This document shows, one piece after another, positions 17,999 through 59,360 of a stretch of 64,000 bases of DNA. Each line of letters starts with the position of its first letter. Within the stretch, counting starts at the first letter, position 1. A model generated the notes under the pieces. It worked only from the letters and a program-made list of their open reading frames with translations, was not told the origin of the DNA and ran no database searches. The stretch is from positions 103,711,298-103,775,297 of the forward strand of contig OZ022498.1 in the NCBI GenBank assembly GCA_963989385.1. The letters are read 5' to 3'. The DNA comes from Ctena decussata (Eukaryota > Mollusca > Bivalvia > Lucinida > Lucinidae). A program made the position numbers and the translations under genes.

Positions 17999-20818
17999 CT
18001 AAATGTCTAAGGCACAATAAATAAGCTTATGATCAGACCAGTAAGCCTCAATCACATCACAGAATGCATCACAATTTGCAAATACCAGATCCAATAATGA
18101 TCCATGATCAGTCGTTGGTTGTCGAATGTACTGACTGCAAAAGAATAAGGTCTCCATAAAACAGACGAAAGGTGACTCAGCTTCATTTACTGGTACATTA
18201 AAATCACCCATTATGACTAGTTTTACATCATGACCTACAAGTGGCTTCAAAGCACTGATAATGTCTTTTTTCAAATCAGTCTGAGAACATTTTGGATATT
18301 TGTAGAACACTACAACTTGCAGTTGACCTTTTCTCTTACTGTGTAATTTAGCAAAAATGAATTCACAAAATTGAGAATGGTGTTTCATCACTTCCTGAAT
18401 TTCAAAATCTTCTTTTATATATAAGGCAAGTCCATGGTGTGGCCTGGTTTCATATGCTGCTTCGTCTAATCGGACAAGTCTGAACCTATTCAAGGCAAAA
18501 TGAACATCTTCATCTCTTGTACACATTCTAGATTCAGCAAACCCAATAACATCTGCAGACAACACATTTGGTTCAAACTGTACATCTATAAAATGTTTAT
18601 GTAGTGACCTTGCATTATTGAAAGCCAGTTTGATTTTGCTGGGATCAATTTTATACAAAGGTGTATAACAGAGCTCAAGAGATGCTTCTGTTCTCAACCT
18701 CTGCATTTCAACATTCACCTGTTCATCTAAACCTATAGCAGCCTCGTTTAGATTCAGAATGTATAAATTTTCTAGTTTTCTGACTCTACTAAATGCAACA
18801 TAATGAATATGGGGTACCTTCCTAACTCCTTTATGCTGAGTTAAATCAACTACAACCTCATCTTCTGTGATCCCTTGATCTTTGTGAACTGTTTTTGCTG
18901 CTGCTGGTCGCAATGGGAATTGTCTTCTCTGATACATTTTGCGATTGTACAAAAAGGTTTTTTCAGTTTCAAATATTGGAGTCCAGTCTCTTTGAATATT
19001 TGAATTATAAAAGCCCCTTTGAAAGTATTTTTCTCTTGTTGCCTTTCCAATTCGAGGATCATCAAATTTCATCCATATAATGCTTGGGCGATTACTGCCT
19101 TCAATTTTATACTCTATGAATTTCACTTTACCTGTAGCTCCATTTGCAATACCATCTTCAACATTGACATTTACCGATATGTTATATTTCATTCCGACCT
19201 TTACAGTCAACACTTTTTCCAAATTAGCTGTTGTTTCAGGATTATCAGGAATTTGGCTGCTAAGTTCCCTTGCTTTTTTTGAGGAAATGTTTGCTGAAGC
19301 AAGAGTGTCATGGCATGGTATATCAACCTCTTCTCCATCAATAGCATTCATAATATTCTCATTATGGTTATACACCCCTACTTTTTCAGCAAATAGATGC
19401 ACAGCATCTCTTGGGTATTCACCTGAATCACGGTCAACAACACGCTTCCGTAAATCATCTTTGTCCTCTTCAGTCAATTCGTTCACACGAAGTCTATTCA
19501 GTAATTGTGCAAACTTAAGGTCGTCTTTCTGTCTCATGATGTCTACTAATTCATAAATTTTGAAATGCTCTTTCCAAGAATTTGGTGCAAGTGCTTTTGC
19601 GCCCTCTTTAAGATCAAGGAATACCAATCTATCACCTACTGGCTTCAACTGATAAAAATCACCAACTGCAATAACACTTAAACCACCAAAACGTGCTCTT
19701 ATACCTGTCAGCTGCTGTAGTCGTGTGTCTATAAAGTCAAAAATCCTTTTCCCTACCATGGATATTTCATCTATAATCACAACCTTCAAGTGTTTGTACT
19801 TAATCCTGAATGTATTCAATTCATCAGCTGACATTCTTTGATCATCTTGAAAGATCTTTCTGTGAAAAGCAGAGCAAATGGTATTACCACCTATATTGAA
19901 AGCAGCAGTGCCCATCCAAGCACATAGAATAATTCTTATATCATCAGAGTTTTCTCCTTCTTTTAGATTTAACATTCTGTACAGACTTTGATAAAGTGCT
20001 CTTATCACTACTGATTTACCAACACCTGCACCGCCTGACAAGAAAGCGTAAATTGGTTCGTCTTTACATTTTATGCAATGAATAATGTGATTGAAAAATT
20101 CCCGCTGTCTTAAATTCAAACTTCGTAGCAGACTTAAGTATTCTTCATCTGGCAGCATGATATTAGTTGTTTCTACCCTTGGCACTGAACATGTGGACTG
20201 CAGCTCTATACCAATGTCATAGTGCCTATGTTCAACCACTCTGTCTGGATTAAAATATACAAAGTTTTCAGACTCTTTTACACCTTCTTCTTCTGCTTCT
20301 CTATTTTCTTGTTCTGCATTTGGTGCAATTCCATCATATTCAGCTTCCTCAGCTTCTATCATTTGCCCGGCAAGTTCAAGTTCTTCAGTGTGATGTTCAT
20401 ACTGATTTCTTTTGATTTCAAGTGACTCTTTGATGGTGTTGTAATGAGCTCCATATGTCTCAAAAGAACCAAGCAGGTCTTTTATTTCATTACGCCATGG
20501 CATAAAAAGCATGAGTTGCTCTCTGTAATAATTTTCTGGGTCCTTAGTTTGATTGTATCTAACATAGCGTATGACTTTAGGGACTTTTCGGTACTTATAT
20601 TTTGTTCCATTCTTTGCTATGTGTATCAAGTCTGATGCAGTATTCCCATTTTCAACCATCTCTTCATCCTCACTATTTTCATCACTTGAATTCTCATCAC
20701 TAATGCTGTCATCATTTCTATATTCTATTGTCTCAGGCAATTTATTTCCTTTTGGATAAATGACATCTACCTTTGAGACATAATCAGCCAAGCAAAACCT
20801 CTGAAGCTGCCTTGGTCT
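17999..20818 (-). CDS. Helentron helicase plus AP-endonuclease, C-terminal part of Rep-Hel protein
   Basis: This is the C-terminal part of the Rep/helicase protein of a Helitron2-type rolling-circle transposon. It is followed by an apurinic-endonuclease domain, the mark of Helentrons. Counting from the TTG at 20791, a Pif1-type superfamily-1 helicase shows Walker A GGAGVGKS (residues 253-260), Walker B IIDEIS (339-344), GDFYQLKP (377-384) and VAFSRVR (665-671). The endonuclease follows with NNARS (725-729), E753, GDFN (862-865) and SDH (919-921). There is no ATG near the start. The frame runs unchanged from the TAA at 20819-20821, in the same frame as the upstream Rep ORF, so this is the rest of one protein cut by a nonsense codon rather than a separate gene. 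Helicase and nuclease motifs are complete. Confidence 0.9.
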   Translation of the reverse strand, partial: RPRQLQRFCLADYVSKVDVIYPKGNKLPETIEYRNDDSISDENSSDENSEDEEMVENGNTASDLIHIAKNGTKYKYRKVPKVIRYVRYNQTKDPENYYREQLMLFMPWRNEIKDLLGSFETYGAHYNTIKESLEIKRNQYEHHTEELELAGQMIEAEEAEYDGIAPNAEQENREAEEEGVKESENFVYFNPDRVVEHRHYDIGIELQSTCSVPRVETTNIMLPDEEYLSLLRSLNLRQREFFNHIIHCIKCKDEPIYAFLSGGAGVGKSVVIRALYQSLYRMLNLKEGENSDDIRIILCAWMGTAAFNIGGNTICSAFHRKIFQDDQRMSADELNTFRIKYKHLKVVIIDEISMVGKRIFDFIDTRLQQLTGIRARFGGLSVIAVGDFYQLKPVGDRLVFLDLKEGAKALAPNSWKEHFKIYELVDIMRQKDDLKFAQLLNRLRVNELTEEDKDDLRKRVVDRDSGEYPRDAVHLFAEKVGVYNHNENIMNAIDGEEVDIPCHDTLASANISSKKARELSSQIPDNPETTANLEKVLTVKVGMKYNISVNVNVEDGIANGATGKVKFIEYKIEGSNRPSIIWMKFDDPRIGKATREKYFQRGFYNSNIQRDWTPIFETEKTFLYNRKMYQRRQFPLRPAAAKTVHKDQGITEDEVVVDLTQHKGVRKVPHIHYVAFSRVRKLENLYILNLNEAAIGLDEQVNVEMQRLRTEASLELCYTPLYKIDPSKIKLAFNNARSLHKHFIDVQFEPNVLSADVIGFAESRMCTRDEDVHFALNRFRLVRLDEAAYETRPHHGLALYIKEDFEIQEVMKHHSQFCEFIFAKLHSKRKGQLQVVVFYKYPKCSQTDLKKDIISALKPLVGHDVKLVIMGDFNVPVNEAESPFVCFMETLFFCSQYIRQPTTDHGSLLDLVFANCDAFCDVIEAYWSDHKLIYCALDI

Positions 20819-23800
20819 TTAAGAATATCTCTGAACTATATTATCTGACTCAATATTTGTGGATTCAGCAGGTAGTTCATTTAGGACTGATTTGGGTTTT
20901 AATAGAAAAACTCTTTCTCTTGAAGCACATGTATTGATATAAACAACCTCTCGAGTTCCTTTGGTCAATGGAATTTGTAGAGCAAGATAGACAGCTTCTT
21001 GAGCACCTACTTCAACACAGTTTGAAAAAACATTTCCTATATGTCTCACTTGTTTTTTTATATCAGAATTTCCTTTTCTGGCTTCCTTCGCAGCAGCTTC
21101 CAGCTGTGCACTCATACCTCTTTGTGATTTGCTTATGTATCCAACAACATATGATGCACAACCATATGGTTCAAGAACAATCTGAATGTCAAGATTAGCT
21201 TTCCAGGCAAGAAGAATTTTACCATTGAACAAATTGACTCTCATTTCATTTGGTGCACGTTTAAGGAACACTTTAGGAGCACTGAGTGAACTTCTTATAC
21301 ACTTAATGTAATCTTCAAATGTCATTTTGGCCACTGTCTCTAAGAATTCAGCAAATGAAACATCATTATCTTTGTTTTCATTCATTAGTCTTTGGAGTTC
21401 TGTAAACTTCTTTTTAAACTGGTCTACCTCTTCCTCTAGTGGATACAATAACATTGTTCGAGGCAAAGGAGGTAAAGGAAATCCAAATCTACATATTGCC
21501 TTTCCCTTTTTTCTACAGGTCCTTGAATGTTTGTGTGTTTGAAGTTCCACAAGATGTGCAGTTTCATCATCATTCACACTACAAGTGAGATACTTATCAA
21601 CAAATTCGACAATTTCTTCTTCAGAGTTCTTTTCCAATGTTGGAGCATTTTCAATCCAAACAAGCATGTGGATGTGAGGTGAACCACGTTGCTGAAACTC
21701 AACTCTATAAAAGAAATCTCTCAGTTTTCCAATGGGTTCACAGTTACTTTTAAGAATAGCATTTAGGAATTCTTGTACCCGGTGATCAAAATATCTTGAG
21801 CATGTAACTGGGTCTTTTTGAACAAGCTTTGTTTTTTCTTGCCATGTTAGTTCCTCTATATCTTTGTCTGTATAACTGACCCCTTTATTAAGTTTTGCCA
21901 ACATTTTCAAAAGATCAGTCCATCTTGTATCTGCTGCTGATAATGACATAAACCACGTTGGCAAAGAAAGCTGCCGAATCATCGCAAAGATATCCTTTTT
22001 TCTTGACTGTAAATAAGCAGGAGAATTTCTAAGTTGACGAAATATGTAATAACCTTCATCAAGTTTGACAAGTTTGTCTAAATACTCAGAATTTCTAGCT
22101 TCAGCTGCTGTAATTTTCTTTTCCTTGCCTTTACATCTTCTAACAGCCAGGTTAACTTTGTCACTTATTTGCTTCATCTGCAATTTTTTGTGTTTAAAAA
22201 ATATGTTTGGAACAGATTGTGCAGCTCTTCTATCAACACTTCTTAATTCCCATTTCACAATGTCACTATAATGAACTGGGACAGTTCTTTCTTCTTTACT
22301 AGGACGCCTCTGACCACAAAATATTGTAGGAAAACAAAGATACTCTGCATCTGCATCATGATATAAACTAAGAGGATGCTGCCCTTCTCCAGGTGCAAAA
22401 GTAATAACTTTATCATATTTGTTTTCAAGATTTTCATCATCAACTAGAGTGTCTACATTGCCAACTTGTTCATAAGTGTCTATCTCACTAAAGTGATCAG
22501 AATCATAGTCATCAGCTGTTGTGCTATCCTTTGATGATGACGGTACATTCACATCTTCCTCATTAGTTCCATTTTGTTTTTGCTTCTCCTCATTTTGCTT
22601 GTTTGACACTTGCAGAAATTCCCTGACAGTCTCCTCTGAACTTTCAGTTACTTCCTTAAACCAGTTGACATCAATTTCTATGCCAGATCTTTTATACAGT
22701 TCACTCTTATTTACCAGCCAGTGTAATGCAGTCAAAACTCTTAATGGTCTTACATTTTCTTTGAAATCCACTTTTTTATATGACAATTTCTTTTTAAGTT
22801 GTACAGCAATAGTAAAGTTTTCATCCATGGGTCTTGGAAGACAGCTCACTGTGGGTTGAATATCAACTGGCACATTAATAACATTGCCTTTCAAAGAATA
22901 CTGACCTCCACGTGGCAACTCTCGAATCTGCATAAATGGAATTCTTAGCGATATAAGTCTTTCTTCAAGCTGATGCAAGTAAAGTTCTAGTGGCTTATCT
23001 GGCCATTTCATTCCATTAGCTACTGACAGTTTTGGAACCTTTCCACCTCTTATTGCTCCCATACAAGTGTGACAAATCCACTCTTCATCATTAATTGACT
23101 TAAATTTGGTGCAGTAAAGTCTACTACTTGTTGGCAAATTGATGTTCTTCAACATGCAAACACCTTTTCTAAACCATGTTTGATGGCAGCATGTACATAC
23201 AAACAATGGTCCTACAGCTATACTTGAATGAAATTGTTTGATACATTCATTGATATCTTTAACATAGCTTTGATCAGATGTCTTCTCTACTCGTTGATCC
23301 TCAAACTTGTTCTTACGTTTTTTACGGGTCTCCTCTAAGTCTATATATTCATTCACTTCATCTATGTTTCGCTTCTTTCTCCTGTACTCCTGCTTCTTAA
23401 CTCTTTCACATTCTAATACAAATGGGTTTTTTCTGGTATTCTGTTTAGATTTGCGCTGAGCCACCAATTCTTTTGCCTTATAATCTCTATCTTGCCTTGC
23501 TTTCTGCTTAGATTTGCGCTGAGCTTCTAATTCTTTCACTTTGTAATCTCTATCTTGCCTGGCTTTATGCATGTGTTTTCGCTGAGCTACTAATTCTTTT
23601 GCTTTGTAATCTCTATCTTGCCTTGCTTTCTGCTTAGATTTGCGCTGAGCTTCTAATTCTTTTGCTTTGTAATCTCTATCTTGCCTTGCTTTCTGCTTAG
23701 ATTTGCGCTGAGCTTCTAATTCTTTCGCTTTGAAATCTCTATCTTGCCTGGCTTTATGCATGTGTTTTCGCTGAGCCACCAATTCTTTCGCTTTGTAATC

Positions 23801-24187
23801 TCTATCTTGCCTTGCTTTCTGCTTAGATTTGCGCTGAGCTTCTAATTCTTTCGCTTTGAAATCTCTATCTTGCCTGGCTTTATGCATGTGTTTTCGCTGA
23901 GCTACTAATTCTTTTGCTTTGTAATCTCTATCTTGCCTGGCTTTACGCATGTGTTTTCGCTGAGTTAATAATTCTTTTGCTTTAAAAGAGGACTTTTGCC
24001 TTGCATTTTGCTTATATATCCTGTGGTAGTCTTTCCGGTTTTTCTTTTTCTTTACATTCAGAATGGATTCTGAATTGCTTGTAATGACAGCTTTCTGTTG
24101 TTGTCGCAAATTTTGATCATCAAAGTAGGCCTCAAGAAGGTTCTCCGGCTGTTCACTTTTTCTTATAGATATAGGCAACAAATCAAA
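20819..24187 (-). CDS. Helentron Rep (HUH endonuclease) N-terminal part
   Basis: This is the replication initiator half of the transposon protein, which would nick and join single strands during rolling-circle transposition. Positions are counted from the TTG at 24181. A highly basic region holds nine to ten 20-residue repeats of the KAKEL(V/E)AQRK type (about 66-250). A Cys-rich zinc-finger-like block follows (C329, C331, C332, C342, C357, C370, C373). Next come the Helitron N-terminal region, the HUH metal site in RGSPHIHMLVW (H836, H838) and a two-tyrosine site YVVGYISK (Y1011, Y1015). It stops at TAA 20819-20821, and the same frame then continues into the helicase. Upstream, the frame also runs directly from the TAG that ends the protease ORF, with no good ATG of its own. 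The key catalytic residues are present. Confidence 0.9.
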   Translation of the reverse strand, partial: FDLLPISIRKSEQPENLLEAYFDDQNLRQQQKAVITSNSESILNVKKKKNRKDYHRIYKQNARQKSSFKAKELLTQRKHMRKARQDRDYKAKELVAQRKHMHKARQDRDFKAKELEAQRKSKQKARQDRDYKAKELVAQRKHMHKARQDRDFKAKELEAQRKSKQKARQDRDYKAKELEAQRKSKQKARQDRDYKAKELVAQRKHMHKARQDRDYKVKELEAQRKSKQKARQDRDYKAKELVAQRKSKQNTRKNPFVLECERVKKQEYRRKKRNIDEVNEYIDLEETRKKRKNKFEDQRVEKTSDQSYVKDINECIKQFHSSIAVGPLFVCTCCHQTWFRKGVCMLKNINLPTSSRLYCTKFKSINDEEWICHTCMGAIRGGKVPKLSVANGMKWPDKPLELYLHQLEERLISLRIPFMQIRELPRGGQYSLKGNVINVPVDIQPTVSCLPRPMDENFTIAVQLKKKLSYKKVDFKENVRPLRVLTALHWLVNKSELYKRSGIEIDVNWFKEVTESSEETVREFLQVSNKQNEEKQKQNGTNEEDVNVPSSSKDSTTADDYDSDHFSEIDTYEQVGNVDTLVDDENLENKYDKVITFAPGEGQHPLSLYHDADAEYLCFPTIFCGQRRPSKEERTVPVHYSDIVKWELRSVDRRAAQSVPNIFFKHKKLQMKQISDKVNLAVRRCKGKEKKITAAEARNSEYLDKLVKLDEGYYIFRQLRNSPAYLQSRKKDIFAMIRQLSLPTWFMSLSAADTRWTDLLKMLAKLNKGVSYTDKDIEELTWQEKTKLVQKDPVTCSRYFDHRVQEFLNAILKSNCEPIGKLRDFFYRVEFQQRGSPHIHMLVWIENAPTLEKNSEEEIVEFVDKYLTCSVNDDETAHLVELQTHKHSRTCRKKGKAICRFGFPLPPLPRTMLLYPLEEEVDQFKKKFTELQRLMNENKDNDVSFAEFLETVAKMTFEDYIKCIRSSLSAPKVFLKRAPNEMRVNLFNGKILLAWKANLDIQIVLEPYGCASYVVGYISKSQRGMSAQLEAAAKEARKGNSDIKKQVRHIGNVFSNCVEVGAQEAVYLALQIPLTKGTREVVYINTCASRERVFLLKPKSVLNELPAESTNIESDNIVQRYS
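23450..24000 (-). repeat. 60-bp coding tandem repeats in Rep
   Basis: Nine to ten 60-bp units encode an alternating 20-residue repeat, rich in Lys/Arg/Gln (…QRKHMHKARQDRD and QRKSKQKARQDRD types). The two unit types are mixed, suggesting expansion by unequal exchange. The repeat length is a multiple of three, so the frame is kept. A charged helical or coiled-coil linker is likely. Confidence 0.85.
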
Positions 24188-25501
24188 CTACATTGTCAAA
24201 TCTATTCTCATACTTTCATAAAATGCATACAAGTATGCAATGAGATCTTCAAGACAAGAAAATGACAATAAGATAGCTGTACCATCACTTGATGACAGGC
24301 CATTTTCTCCGTGAGAATGTGAATCAAAAAATAAGTATGAGGTATTCCTTTTACTTACAGCAGAACACACAGATCCAATTATCAAAAGAACAGATGTTGA
24401 TTTGTTAAAAGCTGTCTCTAGAGCACAATGCAGAGTTGGCAAAGCATCGTTTTCAAAAGTACTCACAAGAGCACCAAAGGCGATAGGTTGTTTTTCAACA
24501 AAATAATGCACAGATTCAAATTCCAAAGCGTCCGGAATTTCTTCTAAGCTCAGTAAAGAGTTTACAAATTTTCCTTGTGCTTTTAAACTATTAACAGTAG
24601 TATTATACAATACATCACCAGCATAAAGAATCTTATCTAGTTCTAAGCCGTTTTGTATTTCATCACATACTAACATGCATAGTGCATTACAAGTACACTG
24701 AAATCCTCTAGATTGATCCGGAAATCTATTGTCATTTTGATGAAAACTACCAAACATAATTTGACTAGCATTCCATATTAGTGGACTGGGTTGTGTTAAT
24801 GCAGGGTTGTCAGTATCCATATTTTCAAAAGGTCTTTCAGTACTAGTTTCTATAATTTCAATATCAGTATTCTGAATAATTTCCTCTTCATTCAAAGATA
24901 AGTCTTCGTAAGTTCTACAGTTTCTGTCAGCAACATCATTTGGATAAGCATCTGCAAAGGTTTCATCAAAATCACTACAAACATTCAAGCATTCATTTGG
25001 AAAGCACTTTGCAAAGTTGAAACTAGACTCCGTGTTAGTTTCTGTAACAGAAACAGCAAAATGATTGGCATCAGAATCAGTACAAAGCTTGGCAACAGAA
25101 TCAGTAAAATGCTTGGCAGGTATTGGCATACAATTTGCAGCAATTTCTGACTTTTTGGGGAAGTTTAACCCATTCTCAGACTTTTTGGGGAAGTTTAACC
25201 CATTCTCAGACTTTTTAGGGAAGTTTAACCCATTCTCAGCCTTTTTGGGGAAGTTTAACCCATTCTCAGACTTTTTGGGGAAGTTTAACCCATTCTCAGA
25301 CTTTTTAGGGAAGTTTAACCCATTCTCAGCCTTTTTGGGGAAGTTTAACCCATTCTCAGCCTTTTTAGGGAAGTTTAACCCTTTTCTATCCCTTTCAGTT
25401 AACAAGTCAGAATCATTGTTTGCTTTCCTTCTCGCTTGTCTCTTTAGCTCTTTGTTCTTCTCTCTCCTTTGTGACTTAGAATCTTTCCTCCTTCTTGGCA
25501 T
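24188..25501 (-). CDS. Helentron-associated cysteine-protease-like protein
   Basis: I chose the ATG at 25501 (MPRRRKDSKS). A basic N-terminus is followed by eight 10-residue repeats of the type ENGLNFPKK(A/S). After an acidic, low-complexity middle comes a conserved-looking domain from about residue 250 (counted from the GTG at 25516). It has GSFHQ, then GFQCTCNALC (candidate nucleophile C274 or C276) and, 120 residues later, FFDSHSHG (D398, H400). A Cys...(Asp)His layout with this spacing resembles papain-fold deubiquitinase-type proteases, such as the OTU peptidases reported in Helentrons or the tegument-protease-like (C76) fold. I cannot decide between them. The ORF ends at TAG 24188-24190, in the same frame as the Rep ORF two codons later. 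A readthrough polyprotein, or a fresh nonsense mutation, would fit. Confidence 0.75.
   Translation of the reverse strand: MPRRRKDSKSQRREKNKELKRQARRKANNDSDLLTERDRKGLNFPKKAENGLNFPKKAENGLNFPKKSENGLNFPKKSENGLNFPKKAENGLNFPKKSENGLNFPKKSENGLNFPKKSEIAANCMPIPAKHFTDSVAKLCTDSDANHFAVSVTETNTESSFNFAKCFPNECLNVCSDFDETFADAYPNDVADRNCRTYEDLSLNEEEIIQNTDIEIIETSTERPFENMDTDNPALTQPSPLIWNASQIMFGSFHQNDNRFPDQSRGFQCTCNALCMLVCDEIQNGLELDKILYAGDVLYNTTVNSLKAQGKFVNSLLSLEEIPDALEFESVHYFVEKQPIAFGALVSTFENDALPTLHCALETAFNKSTSVLLIIGSVCSAVSKRNTSYLFFDSHSHGENGLSSSDGTAILLSFSCLEDLIAYLYAFYESMRIDLTM
25135..25390 (-). repeat. 30-bp coding tandem repeats in protease ORF
   Basis: Eight 30-bp units (plus-strand core gacttttt(g/a)gggaagttta) with very few differences encode the ENGLNFPKK repeat. 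The same 30-bp unit is expanded in the decayed copy at 28128-28525. Antisense frames over this stretch are an artefact. Confidence 0.9.
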
Positions 25502-25548
25502 TGTTGTTGTTTTCACTGAACAGTCTGAAAATAGACAAAAAACAACAT

Positions 25549-25790
25549 TAAATGAGCCCGGTCATGTGAAAACTTGCTTTTCGGCTATGCAAAATACAAA
25601 GGCCCAGATCAGCTGTGCAAATGCACCAGCTGATCATTGCCTTTGTTTTTCACCTCTTCGAGATAGTATGATACCTTCAGTTTTAATGCAATTATTTGAT
25701 GTATAGCCAGCTTCTGTAGCCATGGAAGCTGGTTTGTGTCACACCTGGGTGGAAATCACTAAAACAAGATTTTTCATGACAAGGCTAAAA
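25549..25790 (-). mobile_element. ATGAGCCAC-type MITE sequence in the Helentron 5' leader
   Basis: Starts 48 bp upstream of the protease ATG. It shows the shared order: atgagcc(c/a), a palindrome cccagatcagctgtgc...cagctgatca, a pyrimidine-rich stretch, then ggtttgtgtcacacctgggtgg. The related piece at about 28680-28850 lies in the same place next to the decayed Helentron copy, so this was already part of the Helentron family's leader before that copy decayed. Confidence 0.65.
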
Positions 25791-33939: not shown

Positions 33940-34826
33940 AAAAAGCTGACAAATTTTGGCGCCTAGCATTGCAAAGGCCTATGAGAATCACATGCTATTA
34001 TCCCTTTGCACCTAGATAAACCTTTAAAAAATAAAGATCAACAGCAAGAAACGAGTTTTAATAAGTCTATGGTTATTTGCTTTTGAGAAAAGACAATTAT
34101 AGAGTGATTCATTTTCCCAGCCAGAATATGATGTCAATGTGGGCACGTTCATCTGCAAACAGTGTAAAATGCAATAATTTCAACAAAATAAATGCAAAAC
34201 AATGCATACCATATTCAACCTAATTAGTGCACATGTCCCTGTAAGTGCACATCATGGTAATTTTTTAGTCAAGTCATCAAATGACTCTAAGCACACATAT
34301 TTTATTTGATTATCCCTTTGTTTGCTAGTTTACAAGAGCTGAAAAACGCTACAGAATCTTTCATTTTACGTTTGTAAAACTTCTCAATCCTTTTATGACC
34401 ATATAGACAGCTTTTCTCCTGTAGTAACCTAAAAATTTGTTTCCTTCAATATATATTAAAATACTGAAATATGCTCTTATAAGAAAGAATATTTACTGCA
34501 AGTATTTGTCCCAATTTTGAAAGTTTAGCGCATTGGGCACTTAAAGGGTTGATTACGGTACATGTTATGTCTGCTAGATCATCTGGGATTCTCCTGGAAA
34601 TGAAACCCATTTCCCGCACTCCCCCAAAGTCTACAATGCCTCAAGATTTCAGGCTCAGAAACATTGCAAATTTTTGCATTGTGATCAATATCACATTGTA
34701 ACTTTGTTTATTTCAGTGCCAAGAGAAAGGTCTTGAAGGGGTCACTCAAAAGTAAACTAAACAAACTATACTACAGTTCATGTTTTATTTTAGAATTAAA
34801 AAAAAATTACAGTAAAGTACGTGAAA
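33940..34826. other. Spacer without recognisable gene
   Basis: AT-rich; nothing recognised. Confidence 0.35.
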
Positions 34827-35013
34827 CTACGCGTCAAAGTTGCTGCCAAAAAGTCTTCCTGATGGAGAACTCAATCTCCCTGAAATGAAATCCAAATCTC
34901 CCACATGGAGCTCATCACTTGTACGAATCTTCTTTGCTAAACCAGGAGACCTTAAGACATGGCCAAACCACCTTAGTTTCCATTTCTTGACCAGGGTCAG
35001 GAGTTCATCATAT

Positions 35014-35180
35014 TGTAGTGAATGGGTATAAATACCTCTACTAGCGCCTTGCTGTAGAAGCATGCTTTTATGGCGACGTGGTTAGAGTGGTGGACTGTTG
35101 TTGCTAGTTAAGCAACGTTTGGCTCGGTTAGTGCCTGGATGGGTGACCCAGGTGATTTGGGTGGTTCCAGGTGTCCTGCA
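35014..35180 (+). repeat. Left LTR of the TRIM, containing a 5S-rRNA-derived segment
   Basis: Positions about 35105-35176 match the 3' half of metazoan 5S rRNA, including its internal Pol III promoter. An A-box-like AGTTAAGCAACGTTTGG is followed by a short intermediate element and GGTTAGTGCCTGGATGGGTG, corresponding to the 5S phrase around the C box, then a closing gtggttccaggtg. A TATAAATA lies near the LTR start (35027-35034). The stretch gacgtggttagagtggtgga (35075-35094) is instead reminiscent of a tRNA A box. Confidence 0.85.
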
Positions 35181-35181
35181 A

Positions 35182-35195
35182 TGGTGTCAGAAGTG
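35182..35195 (+). promoter_or_regulatory. Primer-binding site, tRNA-Leu type
   Basis: TGGTGTCAGAAGTG begins one base after the LTR's CA. It is complementary to the 3' terminus of a tRNA-Leu including CCA, as recalled from known tRNA-Leu sequences. Confidence 0.8.
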
Positions 35196-35252
35196 TAGGT
35201 ACGAGCACACAGAACACTACTTTCATCCGATTGAGATAGCCATCCGGTATTC

Positions 35253-35268
35253 AAGAAAAAGGAGGGAG
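35253..35268 (+). promoter_or_regulatory. Polypurine tract of the TRIM
   Basis: Sixteen purines in a row ending three bases before the right LTR, where plus-strand DNA synthesis would be primed. Confidence 0.85.
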
Positions 35269-35271
35269 TAG

Positions 35272-35438
35272 TGTAGTGAATGGGTATAAATACCTCTACT
35301 AGCGCCTTGCTGTAGAAGCATGCTTTTATGGCGACGTGGTTAGAGTGGTGGACTGTTGTTGCTAGTTAAGCAACGTTTGGCTCGGTTAGTGCCTGGATGG
35401 GTGACCCAGGTGATTTGGGTGGTTCCAGGTGTCCTGCA
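35272..35438 (+). repeat. Right LTR of the TRIM
   Basis: Identical to the left LTR over all 167 bases, including TATAAATA at 35285-35292 and the 5S-like promoter boxes. Ends CA directly before the ATAT duplication. Confidence 0.9.
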
Positions 35439-35750
35439 ATATTCTCCAATGGCCGCTTGGATCTTTCTGGGAAGCTCCTCATTGGTTATATGGTCCTTGT
35501 ACAAAATGTTCGGTAACCTTCGGTAGAATCTCATCTAAAATGCATGATTTTTCTCTAACTCTGGTGTCAAGGTCCACAATTCAAATACTTACAGAACTAT
35601 GGAAATGACGAGGGAGCACATTAGTTTAGCTTCTGCCCTTTTACCTTGATCTCCCTCTGGATGCCACTGGTGCTGTTTGTCATCAGTTTGGTCTTCTCAG
35701 CACTGATCTCCATCTTATACTTGTGCATCTCTTCCTCAAGATAAAAAAAA

Positions 35751-36104
35751 TTAAAAAAAGGCTGGGGAACGACTTAAGAAAAGTCGCGAAAACACATAAC
35801 AATGGCTATAAGTTGCATTAAAACATTAATTGCCAACCGGGATAAGTTTCTGATAAATTGAGGACAACTTAGTCAGTTTGTTTGCTTAATGTAGATTCTA
35901 TATTGTCACCCGATGTAACTATTTTTAAGCCTTTACGTTTTTACCTTATTATTTTTTAAAATCAGGGGTGGCTGGACGCTTATCGCAATCCGCCAAGCGA
36001 TATGATTATGATATTGCCCGCAACGGAATTAAATGGACTCACCGCAATCATTACGGAATTGCCCGGTCCTACTAAAGACAGAAAAGGACTTCAATCGGCA
36101 AAAG
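35751..36104. other. Spacer without recognisable gene
   Basis: Nothing recognised. Confidence 0.3.
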
Positions 36105-44478: not shown

Positions 44479-45510
44479 ATGTCCTACCATAAGAGCTCGC
44501 CCTTCGGGCTAGCGGGCCCTTCGGGCCCGCTTGCGATGCTCGCTATGAATATGCCCAAAGAAGAGGTAATGCCCAGAAAAGGAAAAAAATCTGTGAGAGG
44601 AAAAGTTTCACAAGAGCACAGCTATAGTCAGTCTCAGAGAACAATTGGTCGGCAGAAAAGCATTCCAGTAGAATCCTCAGAATCTGAAGAACTTGACTCA
44701 TATGACTGTTGTGACTGTAAAAAGAAAATCTACACAAATGATCCTCCTGTTGAATGTGATTTTTGTAACAATGTTTTCTGCTATAAGTGTTCCGACATCA
44801 GCTCAAAAGCACAGTATAATAAACTTAGTTCAGCAAAAGAGGATGAAGGCATGATGTGGTTCTGTGTACATTGCCAAATTAGCAATCCGGGGGTAAAGAA
44901 AATGCTAGTCAAAGTAACTAAGATTGAGGAAACACAATCTAGCGTTCTTAATAGACTTGATAGTTTAGAACAAAAAAATGAAGGGCTAGATGATAAGATA
45001 AGAAATGCCGTAATCAAACAGAGAGAAGTAGACATACGCAGGCTTAATATCATGTGCTTTGGAATTAAAGAAAGTACAGCTGAGAACGCTGCTCTCAGAA
45101 ATGAGGCTGAAAAGGCTAGTTTAAGTCATATAATCTATGATCTCCTAGAGTTAACTGAAGATGAGTTCTCGTTTGATGGAAAAATCGTTAGAATTGGTGC
45201 ATACGATGAAACTAAAATCAGACCTCTTAGGATAAAGGCAACTTGTTTTGAAAGCAAAAAAAAGCTGTTGGAGACAGCAAGAAATAAATTGAAGAATTCT
45301 GATAACCCTGAGCTGAAAGATATATTTTTCAAACCAGATTTGACAAAAAAGCAAAGGGCAGAGGCATTTGCTAGGAGAGAAAATAGAAGGAAAGAAAGAG
45401 CAAAAGAGAGGCGTCGATCAACAGATCCTGTAGGAGAGGGGGAAGGGGAGCCCTCAAGAGTACCTGCAGAGGCGACGGGAGGAGAACCTTTTCGGGGTTC
45501 TCAAAAGTAA
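44479..45510 (+). CDS. LINE ORF1 protein with PHD-like zinc finger
   Basis: Nucleic-acid-binding protein encoded by the first ORF of a CR1/L2-type LINE. From the ATG at 44479 it spans 343 residues; the ATG at 44545 (MNMPKEEVMP) is an alternative start after a GC-rich stretch. A PHD-type zinc finger occupies about residues 75-135 (YDCCDC, CDFCNNVFCYKC, WFCVHC). A coiled coil follows (about 145-180), then an RRM-like region beginning RRLNIMCFGIKES. The tail is very basic, with KQRAEAFARRENRRKERAKE. Such proteins trimerise and chaperone the LINE RNA. The stop TAA is at 45508-45510, and the ORF2 frame is already open across this point. Confidence 0.85.
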   Translation: MSYHKSSPFGLAGPSGPLAMLAMNMPKEEVMPRKGKKSVRGKVSQEHSYSQSQRTIGRQKSIPVESSESEELDSYDCCDCKKKIYTNDPPVECDFCNNVFCYKCSDISSKAQYNKLSSAKEDEGMMWFCVHCQISNPGVKKMLVKVTKIEETQSSVLNRLDSLEQKNEGLDDKIRNAVIKQREVDIRRLNIMCFGIKESTAENAALRNEAEKASLSHIIYDLLELTEDEFSFDGKIVRIGAYDETKIRPLRIKATCFESKKKLLETARNKLKNSDNPELKDIFFKPDLTKKQRAEAFARRENRRKERAKERRRSTDPVGEGEGEPSRVPAEATGGEPFRGSQK

Positions 45511-45676
45511 TGTAACCCCAAACTTATATGAACATGTACATACGTTAAAAAGTTATTGTTATTCTTTTGAAAGTTCAGTTACACAAGACAGTTCTAGTTC
45601 TGAGTTCAGTTGTTCAAAAGCATTTCCAGTAAAACAAATTGAAGCACAAATCAGAAAAGATTCTGATCGGAAATAT

Positions 45677-48600
45677 TTGCTTAGTAGTAGTATACGCCAT
45701 CATGAGGGTGATAATAGAGACACTGACAGTGAATTATGCTATGATACAGACATTGAATCAAGACATTTTTCTGCTAGTGATGTTTCATCTAATTATAGTG
45801 ACTCTTCAGCCTCATCTATTTGTGACAGTCCTGTGATGAATAGTTTAGAGCCAGTATCTGCGTTGAGCGATGATACATTTATTTATAATATCAGTTCAAA
45901 TGAACAAAGTATAGAGAATTCCCATTTAAGTATAGAGAACACATTTGATACTGATAGTACAGAGACTTATTCACAAAATAGTAATGTCACAGATGGATTT
46001 GACTCAAGCTCAAACCTAAACTCAGATGCAACATATTTATATGATTCATCCCCAGAAAATTCACAGACAATAAATAGTGTCAAAGTAGAATATTTTAATA
46101 ATACTGACAATGAAAAAGGAAAGATAAGTATATACTACACTAATTGTGACAGTGTTTTGAATAAAAGAGATGAGTTGGAACTCGAAATCGAACATTGTGA
46201 CCCAGAAGTTATTGTATTAACAGAAATATTTCCGAAAACTAGTAATTCAACCGAAATATTAACTCAAGAGTTGAAGATAGATGGATATAATTTAATACTT
46301 GGAAAGGTTACTGAGAAATGTAGAGGAGTTTGTATATATGTTAAAAACAATTTGTCATTTTGTGAATGCCAGACTTTGAATGATTTTTCATTCGCTGAAT
46401 CTTGTTGGTGCATTTTACGATTAGAGACTAATAAACAATTATTGATTGGAGGAATCTATAGAAGCCCTAGTAGTACTGCTGTTAATTCCAGACATTTGAA
46501 TGACTTGATTAATATGGCTGTTAGCCTAAAGTTTGACTATACTGTTCTAGTTGGAGATTTTAATTATCCTCATATTTCATGGGAAGATTGGACAACACCA
46601 AATAATCCTAATAATCCAGACTTTCTATTTATAGAATGTTTAAGAGACAATTATTTAGATCAGTGTATAAGTCAACCGACGAGATACCGAGAGGGACAGA
46701 GAGCAAATATACTGGACTTGTTTATTGTGGATAAGAATGAAATTGTAACAAAAATTGTTTATAGCTCAAACTTGGGAGCAAGTGACCATGTTTGTTTTAT
46801 GGCAGAGCTGAACTGTAATGTTATTATGAAAGACTCAGAAACAATAAAAAGAAATTATTACAAAGGAAAATATGAAGATATTAGAGAAGAATTAAGCTCT
46901 GTGAATTGGGAAATAATGAATAGTATGAATGTAGAGGATAGCTGGAATTTCTTTCTAAGTAAATTGAATGACAGTGTAGAAAGAAATGTCCCATTGAAAA
47001 GAAGTTATCAAAGAAAGAAACAGAAATGGGTTGACACAACTTGCTTAACAAGTATAAAACTGAAGAAAAAATTATGGAACAGATATATTCATACAAAGGA
47101 TAGAACTGACTACTTTAGGTACTGTCGTGCGAGAAACCAATGTACAAAGGTAACAAGAACAGCAAAAAAGAAATTTGAACAAAGTGTGATTAAAAATGTG
47201 AAGACTGATCCAAAGGGATTTTGGGGATATGTACGAGAGAAAACGAAATCAAAGACTACTGTTTCAGACCTGAAAGACTTAAATGGTAAAATGGTTAGTG
47301 AGGACACAGAAAAAGCTGATTTATTGAATACATTTTTCGCGTCAGTATTTGTGAATGAGCCAACGGGGGAATTGCCTATTTTTGACATTCGTTATCACGG
47401 CACACCGGTAACAGACTTACAAACTAACTTACAAGATCTAACTAAACGTTTGAAATCATTAAATGCTTGTAAATCCATGGGACCAGATAATTGTCATCCT
47501 AGAGTATTACGGGAAACTGCAGACATAGTGAATATACCATTACAAACAATATTTGATAAGACATTCAGGGAAGGTAGAATACCTAGTATTTGGAAAGATG
47601 CCAATGTAAGTGCATTATACAAAAATAAAGGTGACAAAAGCGAAACAACAAACTATAGGCCTGTTAGTTTAACCTGTCTGCCTAGCAGAATTTGTGAAAA
47701 AACAGTTAGAGATACTATAATGAACCATATGTATACAAATAAACTTTTTACTGAATGTCAGTATGGGTTTCGACATAAAAGAAGTTGCATTCTTCAACTG
47801 TTGGATGTTTTGGACGATTGGAGTAGGTTTTATGATGAAAGTAAACAAATTGACGCTGCATACTTAGATATAAAAAAAGCTTTTGATACCATTCCCCATC
47901 AAAGACTTCTTTTGAAAATGAAAAAGTATGGTTTTGGGGGAAATTTGTTGAAATGGGTTGAGGACTTTTTAAGTGAAAGAAGGCAAAGAGTTGTTTTTAA
48001 TGGTAAATGCTCCACTTGGAAGACTGTCACATCTGGTGTGCCCCAAGGCTCTGTTCTTGGGCCGGTTCTTTTTATCATCTACGTTAACGATATGCCAGAC
48101 AGTCTAGAAAGTTTCTGCAAAATTTTTGCAGATGACACCAAAGTTTACACAGCAGTAGGTGAAAAATCGGATCAAGAGAGACTTCAAAGAGACCTTATAA
48201 AGTTAAGCAAATGGAGTAAACAATGGCTACTAGAATTCTCAGTTCAAAAGTGCAAAGTGATTGAATATGGCAATGTAAGATTTCAGTTTGATTATAAACT
48301 GATAGACAAAGATGGAATTCTAACATCATTACCAAAAGACACTACTGAGAAAGATCTAGGCATATGGTTTCAGAACAATATGAAATTTGAAAACCACATT
48401 ATATATGTGGTTAATAGATGTAATAAACTTCTAGGCCTTATTAAAAGAACATTTAAGTCTCTAGATAAAGAATCATTCTTAACTCTGTATAAGAGTTTGG
48501 TTAGATCAATTATTGACTATGGAGGCAGTGTTTACTTTCCAACGACCAAAAAGAACATACAATTAGTAGAAAACATTCAGAAACGAGCTACTAAAATACT

Positions 48601-48961
48601 ACCTGAGTTAAAAGACTTAACATATTCAGAACGTCTCAAAAGATTAAATCTTCCTACTCTACATTATAGAAGAAAGCGCTATGACTTGATACAGCTATAT
48701 AGGATAGTTCATGGCTTTGATGAAATTGAACCAGGAAAGTTTGTTGACTTTAATGACAACATTACGAGAGGCCACTTATTTAAGATACAGAAACCGAGTT
48801 GTAAAAAGAAATTGAGAATGGATTCTTTTCCAATAAGATGTATCAATATGTGGAACTCCCTTAGTGAAGAGATAGTTTCGAGCGACACAGTGCTGAAATT
48901 CAAATCAAGACTCGACAAATACCTCATGCCAGATAGATATAATCTGGCAGAAATCTACTGA
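45677..48961 (+). CDS. LINE ORF2: AP endonuclease and reverse transcriptase
   Basis: This is the enzyme of a CR1/L2-type non-LTR retrotransposon, which nicks target DNA and primes reverse transcription there. Residues are counted from the TTG at 45677. The endonuclease has YYTNCDSVLNKRDEL (N156), TEIF (E183), VGDFNYPHISW (GDFN 293-296) and ASDHVCF (SDH 369-371). The RT has NYRPVSLTCLPSRICEK, AYLDIKKAFDTIPH, GVPQGSVLGPVLF and the catalytic FADD at about 816-819. The thumb and C-terminus are complete up to the stop. There is no ATG before residue 53 (45833). The frame is open from at least 45500, overlapping the end of ORF1 in another frame. The first 140 residues are Ser/Asn/Asp-rich and look like a linker. 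No stop or frameshift is seen, so the copy may be young. Confidence 0.92.
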   Translation: MLSSSIRHHEGDNRDTDSELCYDTDIESRHFSASDVSSNYSDSSASSICDSPVMNSLEPVSALSDDTFIYNISSNEQSIENSHLSIENTFDTDSTETYSQNSNVTDGFDSSSNLNSDATYLYDSSPENSQTINSVKVEYFNNTDNEKGKISIYYTNCDSVLNKRDELELEIEHCDPEVIVLTEIFPKTSNSTEILTQELKIDGYNLILGKVTEKCRGVCIYVKNNLSFCECQTLNDFSFAESCWCILRLETNKQLLIGGIYRSPSSTAVNSRHLNDLINMAVSLKFDYTVLVGDFNYPHISWEDWTTPNNPNNPDFLFIECLRDNYLDQCISQPTRYREGQRANILDLFIVDKNEIVTKIVYSSNLGASDHVCFMAELNCNVIMKDSETIKRNYYKGKYEDIREELSSVNWEIMNSMNVEDSWNFFLSKLNDSVERNVPLKRSYQRKKQKWVDTTCLTSIKLKKKLWNRYIHTKDRTDYFRYCRARNQCTKVTRTAKKKFEQSVIKNVKTDPKGFWGYVREKTKSKTTVSDLKDLNGKMVSEDTEKADLLNTFFASVFVNEPTGELPIFDIRYHGTPVTDLQTNLQDLTKRLKSLNACKSMGPDNCHPRVLRETADIVNIPLQTIFDKTFREGRIPSIWKDANVSALYKNKGDKSETTNYRPVSLTCLPSRICEKTVRDTIMNHMYTNKLFTECQYGFRHKRSCILQLLDVLDDWSRFYDESKQIDAAYLDIKKAFDTIPHQRLLLKMKKYGFGGNLLKWVEDFLSERRQRVVFNGKCSTWKTVTSGVPQGSVLGPVLFIIYVNDMPDSLESFCKIFADDTKVYTAVGEKSDQERLQRDLIKLSKWSKQWLLEFSVQKCKVIEYGNVRFQFDYKLIDKDGILTSLPKDTTEKDLGIWFQNNMKFENHIIYVVNRCNKLLGLIKRTFKSLDKESFLTLYKSLVRSIIDYGGSVYFPTTKKNIQLVENIQKRATKILPELKDLTYSERLKRLNLPTLHYRRKRYDLIQLYRIVHGFDEIEPGKFVDFNDNITRGHLFKIQKPSCKKKLRMDSFPIRCINMWNSLSEEIVSSDTVLKFKSRLDKYLMPDRYNLAEIY

Positions 48962-57052: not shown

Positions 57053-58138
57053 CTATTGATCTAGAATAGCATGACTAAAACTTGAGTCATTAGAAATTGG
57101 TCTATTGTAAAACTTTCTAAAAGTACAGTCACGGGACCATCCCGCTGTCTTAATGACATTATCTATAGGAACTTTTGTAATTGCAGCACTTGTTGCCGCA
57201 CTTCTAGTACTGTGCGGTGTGAACACTGATAAATCTATTCCTGCTAATTTCAAACACAACTTAATCCATTTGGCTATAGTACTCTTTGATGCAAGATTAT
57301 AAGGTTTTTGTGAAATAATAAACAATTCTGACCCAGCTCTCAACATTTTGGTCTTGTTTAAATAGTGCTTGAGCATCCTCACTACACAAATATTCTTATT
57401 TTTAGGAAAAGACTCTAAATAGAGTTCCGCAATATGTTTTCCTGGCTTTGACTGTTTTAAAAGAGTCCCAACTCTAATTTTGATGTAGTTTTCAGATATC
57501 TCCATATTGTCAATTCTCAAAGCAAACAATGTTTGGCATCTCTGACCAGTTACAAGAATTAAAAGAGTTGCCAACGTCATGGACAACAATTTTAAAGTTA
57601 AACTTGCAGTGTCAAGACCACTTAAAAAATCCAACACAATTTTAACATCCCAAGTAAATAACGTTTTAGGCACTGAAGGCTTTAAATGAAATATGCCTTT
57701 CATAAACCGTTGAATTAATGGCTCAACCCCAATATTGTGTTTGTGAATAATAGAAAAAATAGATGACAGCATGCTTTTAGCAGTATTAATAGCACTATAT
57801 CCTAAACCGGACTCATGCAGTTCTGTGAGAAACGCTAGAATATCCCCTAAAGATGGATTAATTTTATCCACTTGTCGTTGTGAACAAAATTGCATCCATC
57901 TTTTGAGATACGACCCATACTGCTTGTAAGTCGTTGCTCTCCAGGACTGCATGATAATGGAAGTAGCTTGTTCTGATAGGCCTGCACTGATGAGGCATTT
58001 CCCGACAATTTGAAGGCTCCCATCCTCATTTTTGTCAATCTGTGTTGTATGTCCTTTGTTGGATGGTACAGCAGATTGTTTATTTTTGGGAGAATGTAGC
58101 TCTGACCACTGATCTGCTGCATCAGTTGAGGGAACCAT
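57053..58138 (-). CDS. DIRS-type tyrosine recombinase
   Basis: Recombinase that would integrate the circular cDNA of a DIRS-like retrotransposon; the active site is a tyrosine-recombinase set. It starts at ATG 58136-58138 and spans 361 residues. An N-terminal SAM-like core-binding region lies at about 50-135 (TYKQYGSYLKRWMQFC). The catalytic domain has R200 in VTGQRCQTLFALR, a candidate Lys around 231-234 (KPGK), H309 and R312 in TPHSTRSAATS, W334 in the last His/Trp position, and Y344 in FRKFYNRP. All are in place and no stop interrupts. It overlaps the end of the RT-RNase H frame (57847-58138) in a different frame, as is normal for DIRS elements. Confidence 0.88.
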   Translation of the reverse strand: MVPSTDAADQWSELHSPKNKQSAVPSNKGHTTQIDKNEDGSLQIVGKCLISAGLSEQATSIIMQSWRATTYKQYGSYLKRWMQFCSQRQVDKINPSLGDILAFLTELHESGLGYSAINTAKSMLSSIFSIIHKHNIGVEPLIQRFMKGIFHLKPSVPKTLFTWDVKIVLDFLSGLDTASLTLKLLSMTLATLLILVTGQRCQTLFALRIDNMEISENYIKIRVGTLLKQSKPGKHIAELYLESFPKNKNICVVRMLKHYLNKTKMLRAGSELFIISQKPYNLASKSTIAKWIKLCLKLAGIDLSVFTPHSTRSAATSAAITKVPIDNVIKTAGWSRDCTFRKFYNRPISNDSSFSHAILDQ

Positions 58139-58562
58139 GGCTGTGAAGGGAAAATGGGCGCCACCAGAATTATATTTGCTGCGTCTTCTCTCATCTTTTG
58201 TAACAGGTGTCCAATTACACTGAAAGGAGGAAATGCATACATTTGTAAACCATTATTCCAAGATAATGAAAATGCATTAACTGCGTAAGCACGAGTGTCT
58301 GGGACGTATGACACATGTTGTTCCAACTTAAAGTTTTTGGACGACGCAAACAGATCAATATGACATGTTCCCATTTTTTCCTGTATGATGTCAAATATCC
58401 GTGTATTCAGGGCCCATTCCATGTCATCATTAAGCTTTTTCCCCGCTCTAGATAATGCGTCTGCCCTTATATTTAAACTACCAGCAATTAGGAAAAAAAA
58501 CAGCCAAATGTTTCTTTCCTCACACCAGCACCATATATCTCTGGCCAATGAATTTAGGTTTT
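57847..58562 (-). CDS. DIRS-type RT-RNase H protein, C-terminal part (5'-truncated)
   Basis: This is the end of the polymerase protein of the same DIRS element. It starts inside RNase H and shows AGSLNIRADALSR, the RNase H end signature of this group. It continues with MEWALN, HIDLFASSKNFKLEQHVSY and PIFPSQPWFPQLMQ, and ends KMRMGAFKLSG plus a tail. The reverse transcriptase and the start of RNase H are missing. The frame runs without a stop into the adjoining hairpin of element H4 up to 58593, but those last codons come from H4, so I end the feature at the junction. The missing part does not reappear beyond H4. Confidence 0.82.
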
Positions 58563-59360
58563 TATGCCCCCGCCATTTAAAATGGGGGGGCATATAGTAT
58601 CACCCCTGTCCGTACGTACGTAGCGTACGTACGTAGCGTAGCGTACGTAGCGTACGTACGAAAAATGGTTTCCGTTCAATATCTTTTGAAAGCATTGGTG
58701 TATTGAATTCATATTTCATACACAGCTATATAATCATAAAATACAGGTCAAGTTCGATGTTGGGTAAAATCCGGCTATTATTGTGGGAGTTTTGGCCCTT
58801 TTTCGACTTCTGTTTCTATGAAAAAATGGTTTCCGTTCAATATCTTTTGAAAGCATCGGTATATTGAATTCATATTTTACACACAGCTATATAATCATAA
58901 AATACAGGTTAAGTTCGATGTTGGGTAAAATCCGTCAATTATTGTTGGAGTTATGGCCCTTTTTCGACTTCTGTTTCTATGAAGAAATGGTTTCCGTTCG
59001 ATATCTTCTGAAAGCATTGTTGTATTGAATTCATATTTTATACACAGGTATATAATCATAAAATACAGGTCAAGTTTGATGTTGGGCAAAATCCGTCAAT
59101 TATTGTGGGAGTTATGGCCCTTTTTCGACTTTATTTTGTATGAAAAAATGGTTTCCGTTCGATATCTTTTAAAAGCATTGGTGTATTGAATTCATATTTT
59201 ATACACAGGTATATAATCATGAAATACAGGTCAAGTTCGATGTTGGGCAAAATCCGTCAATTATTGTGGGAGTTATGACCCTTTTTCGACTTCATTTTGT
59301 ATGAAAAACTGGTTTCCGTTCATTATCTTTTGAAAGCATTGGTATATTGAATTCATAAGC
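58563..59360 (-). mobile_element. Tandem-core Helitron-like element, family H4, minus orientation
   Basis: It starts (on plus) with a hairpin tatgccccc...gggggggcata (58563-58593), followed by a cgtacgtacgtagcgtacg run (58610-58660). Between four and five units of about 162 bp follow ('atggtttccgttcaatatct', 'atacaggtcaagttcgatgt'). Hairpin plus run plus tandem core is the 3'-end arrangement of families H1-H3, read on the minus strand. The expected 5' end is not seen near 59360, so that end is truncated. Confidence 0.75.

Follow-up and report, generated by a model that had tools for sequence, protein, structure and literature searches.

A TRIM with 5S rRNA promoter segments in its LTRs in the genome of the bivalve Ctena decussata

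The analysed stretch of the Ctena decussata genome, referred to as the window, comprises 64,000 nucleotides. By inspection of the sequence a TRIM of 425 bp was located at 35014-35438, consisting of a 167-bp LTR, a 91-bp interior and a second 167-bp LTR. Left and right LTR are identical in 167/167 positions and are bounded by TG...CA. Structure and coordinates given in the initial annotation, namely the identical LTRs, the interior, the primer site, the polypurine tract and the ATAT duplication, were all reproduced (Table 1). The primer binding site TGGTGTCAGAAGTG is presumably of the tRNA-Leu type. The insertion lies in a minus-strand reading frame that we take to be sequence of the LINE C-terminal type. 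After omission of the insert and one ATAT, this frame is continuous as ...KIQAAIGEYDELLTLVKKWKLRWFGHV..., which agrees with the earlier proposal that the element interrupts a LINE remnant; the LINE itself was identified by eye. Further frames of the window were also assigned by eye: a Helitron-like frame with helicase and Rep-like parts (17999-25561, minus strand), a LINE reverse transcriptase (45434-48961, plus strand) and a tyrosine-recombinase element (57053-58599, minus strand). Relatives of the window's LINE frame carry a Pfam reverse-transcriptase domain.

Table 1. Features of the element and of its insertion site, in positions of the window.
Feature	Position	Strand	Remark
Target duplication ATAT, left copy	35010..35013	+	exact 4-bp duplication
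Left LTR, 167 bp, TGTAG...CTGCA	35014..35180	+	identical to right LTR; many copies genome-wide
TATAAATA with TATAAA	35027..35034	+	TATAAA starts 79 nt ahead of the 5S A box
Predicted 10-bp RNA hairpin, loop CAUG	35051..35074	+	surrounds the putative start and stop sites; -8.3 kcal/mol
Putative R region, LTR 44 to end of TTTT (LTR 53-56)	35057..35069	+	from 5S alignment (+1) and TTTT position
Stretch resembling a tRNA D arm, perhaps box A of a tRNA-type promoter	35071..35096	+	20/22 to a D-arm consensus
5S-derived promoter core: A box, intermediate element, C box	35106..35148	+	alignment to own 5S genes
Primer binding site TGGTGTCAGAAGTG	35182..35195	+	one base (A) after left LTR
Polypurine tract AAGAAAAAGGAGGGAG, 16 nt	35253..35268	+	followed by TAG, then right LTR
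Right LTR, 167 bp	35272..35438	+	identical to left LTR
Target duplication ATAT, right copy	35439..35442	+	exact 4-bp duplication
Translated stretch around the insertion, in part a LINE remnant that the element interrupts	34800..35800	-	frame continuity; LINE named by eye

The host's own 5S rRNA genes were located in the same genome by means of the Rfam model. An alignment of the LTR to these genes, which the initial annotation had suggested, yielded an ungapped match of LTR 93-135 to 5S positions 50-92 with 37/43 identical positions. For a second LTR type of the family (type B, see below; the window type is called type A) the identity amounts to 38/43, and the examined copy of a third type (type C) aligns with small indels. 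For each of the three LTRs, none of 2000 dinucleotide shuffles reached the observed score. The proposed 5S internal-promoter half of the LTR, originally read from the sequence without any search, is thereby substantiated. The local alignment is confined to 5S positions 50-92 in types A and B and to 48-92 in type C, and in types A and B the spacing of A box, intermediate element and C box is kept. Since the similarity stops at these three promoter elements, the LTR possesses the 5S promoter and not the 5S RNA. With up to three mismatches, a 20-mer of the C box occurs at two places in the window, both of them in the LTRs; two matches were obtained in 0/100 shuffles. The LTR was not picked up by the Rfam 5S model, as may be expected because the matching piece is only 43 nt long. 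Genome-wide, the C-box pattern is found at 1412 places with up to two mismatches, a figure that is no count of elements, since genuine 5S genes themselves deviate from the pattern at two positions. The own 5S genes are organized in arrays, at C1:39689995-39798102 with a period of mostly about 4.15 kb and at C2:25509091-25645017 with a period of about 4.35 to 4.85 kb.

To characterize the family, the host genome (1.66 Gb, 245 contigs) was searched with the LTR as the initial annotation had proposed, and full elements, solo LTRs and tandem arrays were all found. Of 757 candidates 40 were scored, giving 53 matches, and 40 loci were fetched from the best matches, the window copy included. All 40 show the order LTR-interior-LTR, some with a cut LTR, and seven of them are arrays of 3 to 5 LTRs. 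For the analysis of target duplications nine of the 40 loci were dropped due to a cut outer LTR, which left 31 for measurement, again including the window copy. An exact 4-bp duplication flanks 26 of these 31 elements with both outer ends (the misses are L014, L020, L023, L028 and L044), and a 5-bp duplication flanks none of them (0/31). When flanks were paired across different loci as a control for chance, 9/930 pairs matched. The mean difference between loci is 3.3%. Identical LTR pairs are present in 7 of the 30 loci with two near-complete LTRs, counting the window copy; some copies are thus young, so that elements of this family may still move, which could be assayed.

Allowing up to two mismatches, the genome contains the initial 23 nt of the LTR at 374 places, a number that pools LTRs of related types, and the reversed control gave no hit. 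Among 38 further loci, seven hold a single full-length LTR alone. Five of these solo LTRs (L068, L071, L073, L092, L098) are flanked by a 4-bp duplication, and two (L085, L088) are without one. Among the interiors, the 14-mer of the primer site is present in 45/50 and the polypurine core AAAGGAGGG in 47/50, while an 18-nt form of the primer site is found in 0/50. At L034 (C4:1673500-1676000) the 3' part of the LTR is repeated in tandem together with flanking DNA, with a period of 312 bp. Exact-pattern scans of viral and prokaryote contigs returned no match, which says nothing on animals.

At least three LTR subfamilies can be distinguished, and they differ mainly in the 3' part of the LTR. Type A ends in CTGCA. 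In type B, positions 1-140 are common to type A and the LTR ends in ...TTTACTACA; it is followed by TGGTGGCAGCGGTGGGAT, presumably a second tRNA-Leu type. Type C has LTR 1-136 in common, ends in ...CACATCA and contains an interior of 152 bp with TGGTATCAGAAGTG. For this type 40 of 738 candidates were scored and ten elements were chosen for an analysis of the flanks; exact 4-bp duplications were observed in 10/10 and 5-bp duplications in 0/10. The locus L065 is a mosaic with type A LTRs, a type C-like interior of 152 nt and the 4-bp duplication TTAC. A more distant D type was encountered at two loci, L142 and L150, among 12 fetched C-box places. It exhibits the same order as the LTR, i.e. a T run, a tRNA-like stretch and the 5S core, and both loci carry GCCGGC in place of GCATGC ahead of the T run. 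In L150 an LTR-like end is followed by the Leu-type primer site TGGTGGCAGCAGTGGGAT.

With these copies at hand, the signs that would have spoken against a TRIM could be looked for: the spacing and the TG/CA ends recur, and 4-bp duplications are found in most elements (26/31 and 10/10). A competing view of the architecture, a tandem dimer of a SINE3 instead of an LTR element, could draw on the presence of a 5S promoter and on the existence of tandem copies. It does not account for the fixed LTR-interior-LTR order, which in two subfamilies is flanked on the outside by 4-bp duplications, nor for solo LTRs, primer site and polypurine tract. Due to the recurring spacing, the TG/CA ends and the mostly 4-bp duplications, the element is not a SINE3 dimer; LTR structure and the duplications of other copies rule this candidate out, and we assign it practically no probability. 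The element is supported as an LTR-type, gene-less TRIM that carries a 5S internal promoter in its LTRs, and the window copy is a real, young member of a family with multiple subfamilies.

TATAAA lies at -28 of the own 5S genes in 7/7 loci checked, and its distance to the A box is 79 nt in the LTR compared to 77 nt in these seven loci. When LTR 1-92 was shuffled by single bases, 45 of 20000 sequences had a TATAWA within 2 nt of the same place. Aligned to the 5S genes, LTR position 44 corresponds to +1. On the plus strand of the unit, TTTT is present only at positions 53-56 of each LTR, where it is intact in 142 of 150 LTR copies retrieved in a mismatch-limited search. No further TTTT lies between these two sites in 4/4 units of types A, B and C. 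As a proof of Pol III use this depletion is not significant, since 1626 to 2363 of 3000 shuffles per unit are free of TTTT as well.

The putative start and stop positions lie within a predicted hairpin at LTR 38-61 (z -2.42; 4/200 shuffles as good). As a conserved structure the hairpin was rejected: covariation was not seen, and 61 of 95 one-sided stem changes break the pairing. By hand tally, 34 of 49 transitions in the stem keep the pairing compared to 13 of 20 possible ones, which is about as expected. Downstream, LTR 58-83 agrees with a tRNA D-arm consensus in 20/22 positions, a value reached by 0/3000 single-base shuffles. Scores of the short box A and box B consensus in the LTR are not above chance (2298/3000 and 1467/3000 shuffles, respectively), and ARAGORN reported no tRNA in the window. 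A GGTTC is found at LTR 150-154 of type A and is absent from the type B and C LTRs examined. Taken by itself, the D-arm likeness may hint at a tRNA origin of LTR 58-83, for which it is suggestive only.

From this arrangement we infer that the element probably uses Pol III. The A box and C box of the 5S segment, possibly together with the TATA at about -30, would recruit the polymerase, which would start near position 44 of the left LTR. It would then read through the primer site, the interior and the polypurine tract and stop at the first TTTT met at some distance, which is the one at 53-56 of the right LTR. The resulting RNA of about 270 nt would have the order R-U5-primer site-interior-polypurine tract-U3-R. 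With the same 6-13 nt (R) at both of its ends, such an RNA could serve as a complete template. Copying would be primed by a tRNA-Leu. The proteins for copying and for integration would come from an autonomous LTR retrotransposon that resides in the same genome and generates duplications of 4 bp. Overall, a TRIM with 5S-promoter LTRs whose Pol III RNA is a complete template copied by helper proteins is probably the best explanation of the data. Against the model, the TTTT of the left LTR, 10-13 nt past the putative start, could cause an early stop of Pol III.

Pol II could equally make use of the TATA at about -30. A TRIM run by Pol II from this LTR TATA, with the 5S segment as a passenger or merely enhancer-like, was weighed against Pol III use. 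TATAAATA is placed as in a Pol II LTR promoter, and among family members the 5S segment is kept no better than the rest of the LTR, its conservation being 0.985 compared to 0.978 to 0.992 for other segments. On the other hand, AATAAA and ATTAAA are absent from the plus strand of the 425 bp. Further, the spacing of A box, intermediate element and C box is retained (with small indels in type C) and the 5S likeness ends at the promoter core. The distance from TATA to A box also lies within 2 nt of that in the host 5S genes; yet the exact TATAAATA occurs in only 44/83 LTRs, with CATATATA in 27/83, and no segment of the LTR is less conserved than that of the TATA (0.910). We consider transcription by Pol II unlikely and retain the Pol III model as the preferred one.

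In search of the helper postulated by this model, an 18-nt Leu-type primer site was located at 686 places of the genome, with no hit for the reversed control. Some of these sites lie inside the present TRIM family (L059; C1:52414100, the latter within a type C match). Of 20 fetched loci, 18 show by eye ACA or GCA shortly ahead of the site, as expected of an LTR end, the exceptions being the overlapping L105 and L106. Gag-like frames were seen by eye in some of the 20 loci; in the one frame that was searched, that of L115, Pfam reported no family. L110/L120 (C1:13988409-13996900) is a complete, recent LTR retrotransposon with identical LTRs of about 1446 bp and a single long frame in which the integrase precedes the reverse transcriptase. 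Its duplication, TTGGC by eye, comprises 5 bp, and the element was for this reason rejected as the 4-bp partner. At L119 no LTR repeat was found next to the primer site. Among the Leu-primed stretches examined (L110/L120 and L119), none was identified as an autonomous partner with 4-bp duplications. At L105/L106 (C1:9518510-9518587) the 18-nt Leu primer sequence is repeated, also as its own inverted repeat.

A 5S promoter in the LTRs of a TRIM, together with tandem arrays, is shared with Cassandra of plants, for which tandem LTR-interior arrays are described (PMC7215508, PMC10853983). According to the same sources, the LTRs of Cassandra hold 5S RNA sequences with promoters and terminators; its length is given as 565-860 bp in PMC10886601. 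Compared with the pattern in PMC7215508, the gap between A box and C box is likewise 18 nt in the Ctena LTR, the C box agrees in 12/13 positions (reached by 12/3000 shuffles) and the A box in 9/11 scored positions (835/3000). Cassandra is described from plant hosts with the primer site TGGTATCAGAGC, whereas the Ctena element has TGGTGTCAGAAGTG and an animal host (PMC7215508, PMC10853983). The COI of the genome reads with the invertebrate mitochondrial code. On the mitochondrial contig (C245) COI matches PF00115, and cox1-nad4L-cox3 were seen on one strand within 3.3 kb. We take this order to be bivalve-like, and the 5S sequence likewise seems to fit a mollusc. A search for molluscan haemocyanin, run with no positive control, gave no hit.

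TRIMs with Pol III promoters have been named TRIMp3 (PMC10886601), and the small-RNA-gene promoter that marks them is present in the Ctena LTR in the form of the 5S core. The initial annotation knew of no animal example of such an element. This has to be corrected: Ajax, described from two nemerteans as TRIMs with a partial 5S in the LTR, agrees with the Ctena element in design, length class and tRNA-Leu primer (Kojima 2024, PMC10886601). As reported there, Ajax-1_NGe and Ajax-1_LiLo measure 421/434 bp and have a tRNA-Leu primer and 5-bp duplications; one nemertean genome was screened and one more was searched for Ajax. Similar to the Ctena element, Ajax bears only A box, intermediate element and C box in its LTR. 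The words TATA and TTTT are absent from the main text of that paper (PMC10886601), so that the comparison with Ajax covers promoter boxes, primer, length and duplications. Besides Ajax, no other animal or molluscan 5S-TRIM was found among open-licence PMC papers.

The partial 5S promoter, the tRNA-Leu primer and the length of 425 bp compared to 421/434 bp would fit a true Ajax, i.e. kinship with the nemertean family by descent or horizontal transfer and a changed duplication length (PMC10886601). Against this stands the integration signature, since the duplications of Ajax are 5 bp long, and duplications of this length were found here in 0/31 and 0/10 elements, with Ajax compared by its description only (PMC10886601). 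We regard a true Ajax as possible but doubtful. Due to the 4-bp duplications of the Ctena element and the 5-bp duplications reported for Ajax, an origin independent of Ajax and of Cassandra is plausible. The Ctena family, not the first in animals, apparently represents one more lineage that differs in its integration signature, as far as the description of Ajax allows the comparison.

Among the known systems, Helenus likewise combines a Pol III-type promoter in a TRIM LTR with 4-bp duplications; it comprises animal families, including bivalves, whose LTRs contain boxes A and B of tRNA origin, and makes 4-bp duplications in animals (PMC10886601). The boxes of the Ctena LTR are those of 5S, and its likeness to a tRNA is limited to, at most, a box A stretch. 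Box B of the Ctena LTR scores at chance and the box A-like stretch stands out only against the D-arm consensus, so that tRNA-derived boxes A and B as in Helenus are not found. From bivalves, biv-TRIM has been reported with repeats of 202-218 bp, an interior of 77-80 bp and no clear primer site (PMC6934838). Like the present element it is a small bivalve TRIM that also occurs as solo repeats and in arrays; the Ctena LTR has a 5S core, whereas the term "5S rRNA" does not occur in PMC6934838.

5S promoters in LTRs are therewith present in plants (Cassandra), nemerteans (Ajax) and now this animal. As Ajax and the Ctena element differ in duplication length, their helper elements probably differ as well, which favours repeated recruitment of the 43-bp promoter module. 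The anatomy of the element also offers a concrete, testable answer to the question of how an LTR element driven by Pol III might produce an RNA with terminal repeats. As a tentative picture, to which we attach rather low confidence, the family might form a lineage of 5S-TRIMs distinct from both Ajax and Cassandra. The LTR of this lineage would be a composite Pol III promoter of TATA at about -30, tRNA-like box A stretch and 5S A box, intermediate element and C box. The polymerase would pass over the T run of the left LTR and terminate at that of the right one, which would set an R of 6-13 nt, so that one Pol III transcript would be a complete template independent of a poly(A) signal. Such a lineage would comprise at least four LTR subfamilies (A, B, C and the two D loci), between which LTR 3' ends and interiors would have been exchanged and which would use at least two types of tRNA-Leu primer. 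It would stand beside another repeat that has only the 43-nt module.

This different repeat was observed at L145 (C3:43394933-43395195), L148 (C5:41678021-41678283) and L151 (C8:56598148-56598410). It has only the 43-nt 5S module in common with the LTR (84-86%) and carries T runs downstream; possibly it represents a SINE3-like source or another capture of 5S sequence.
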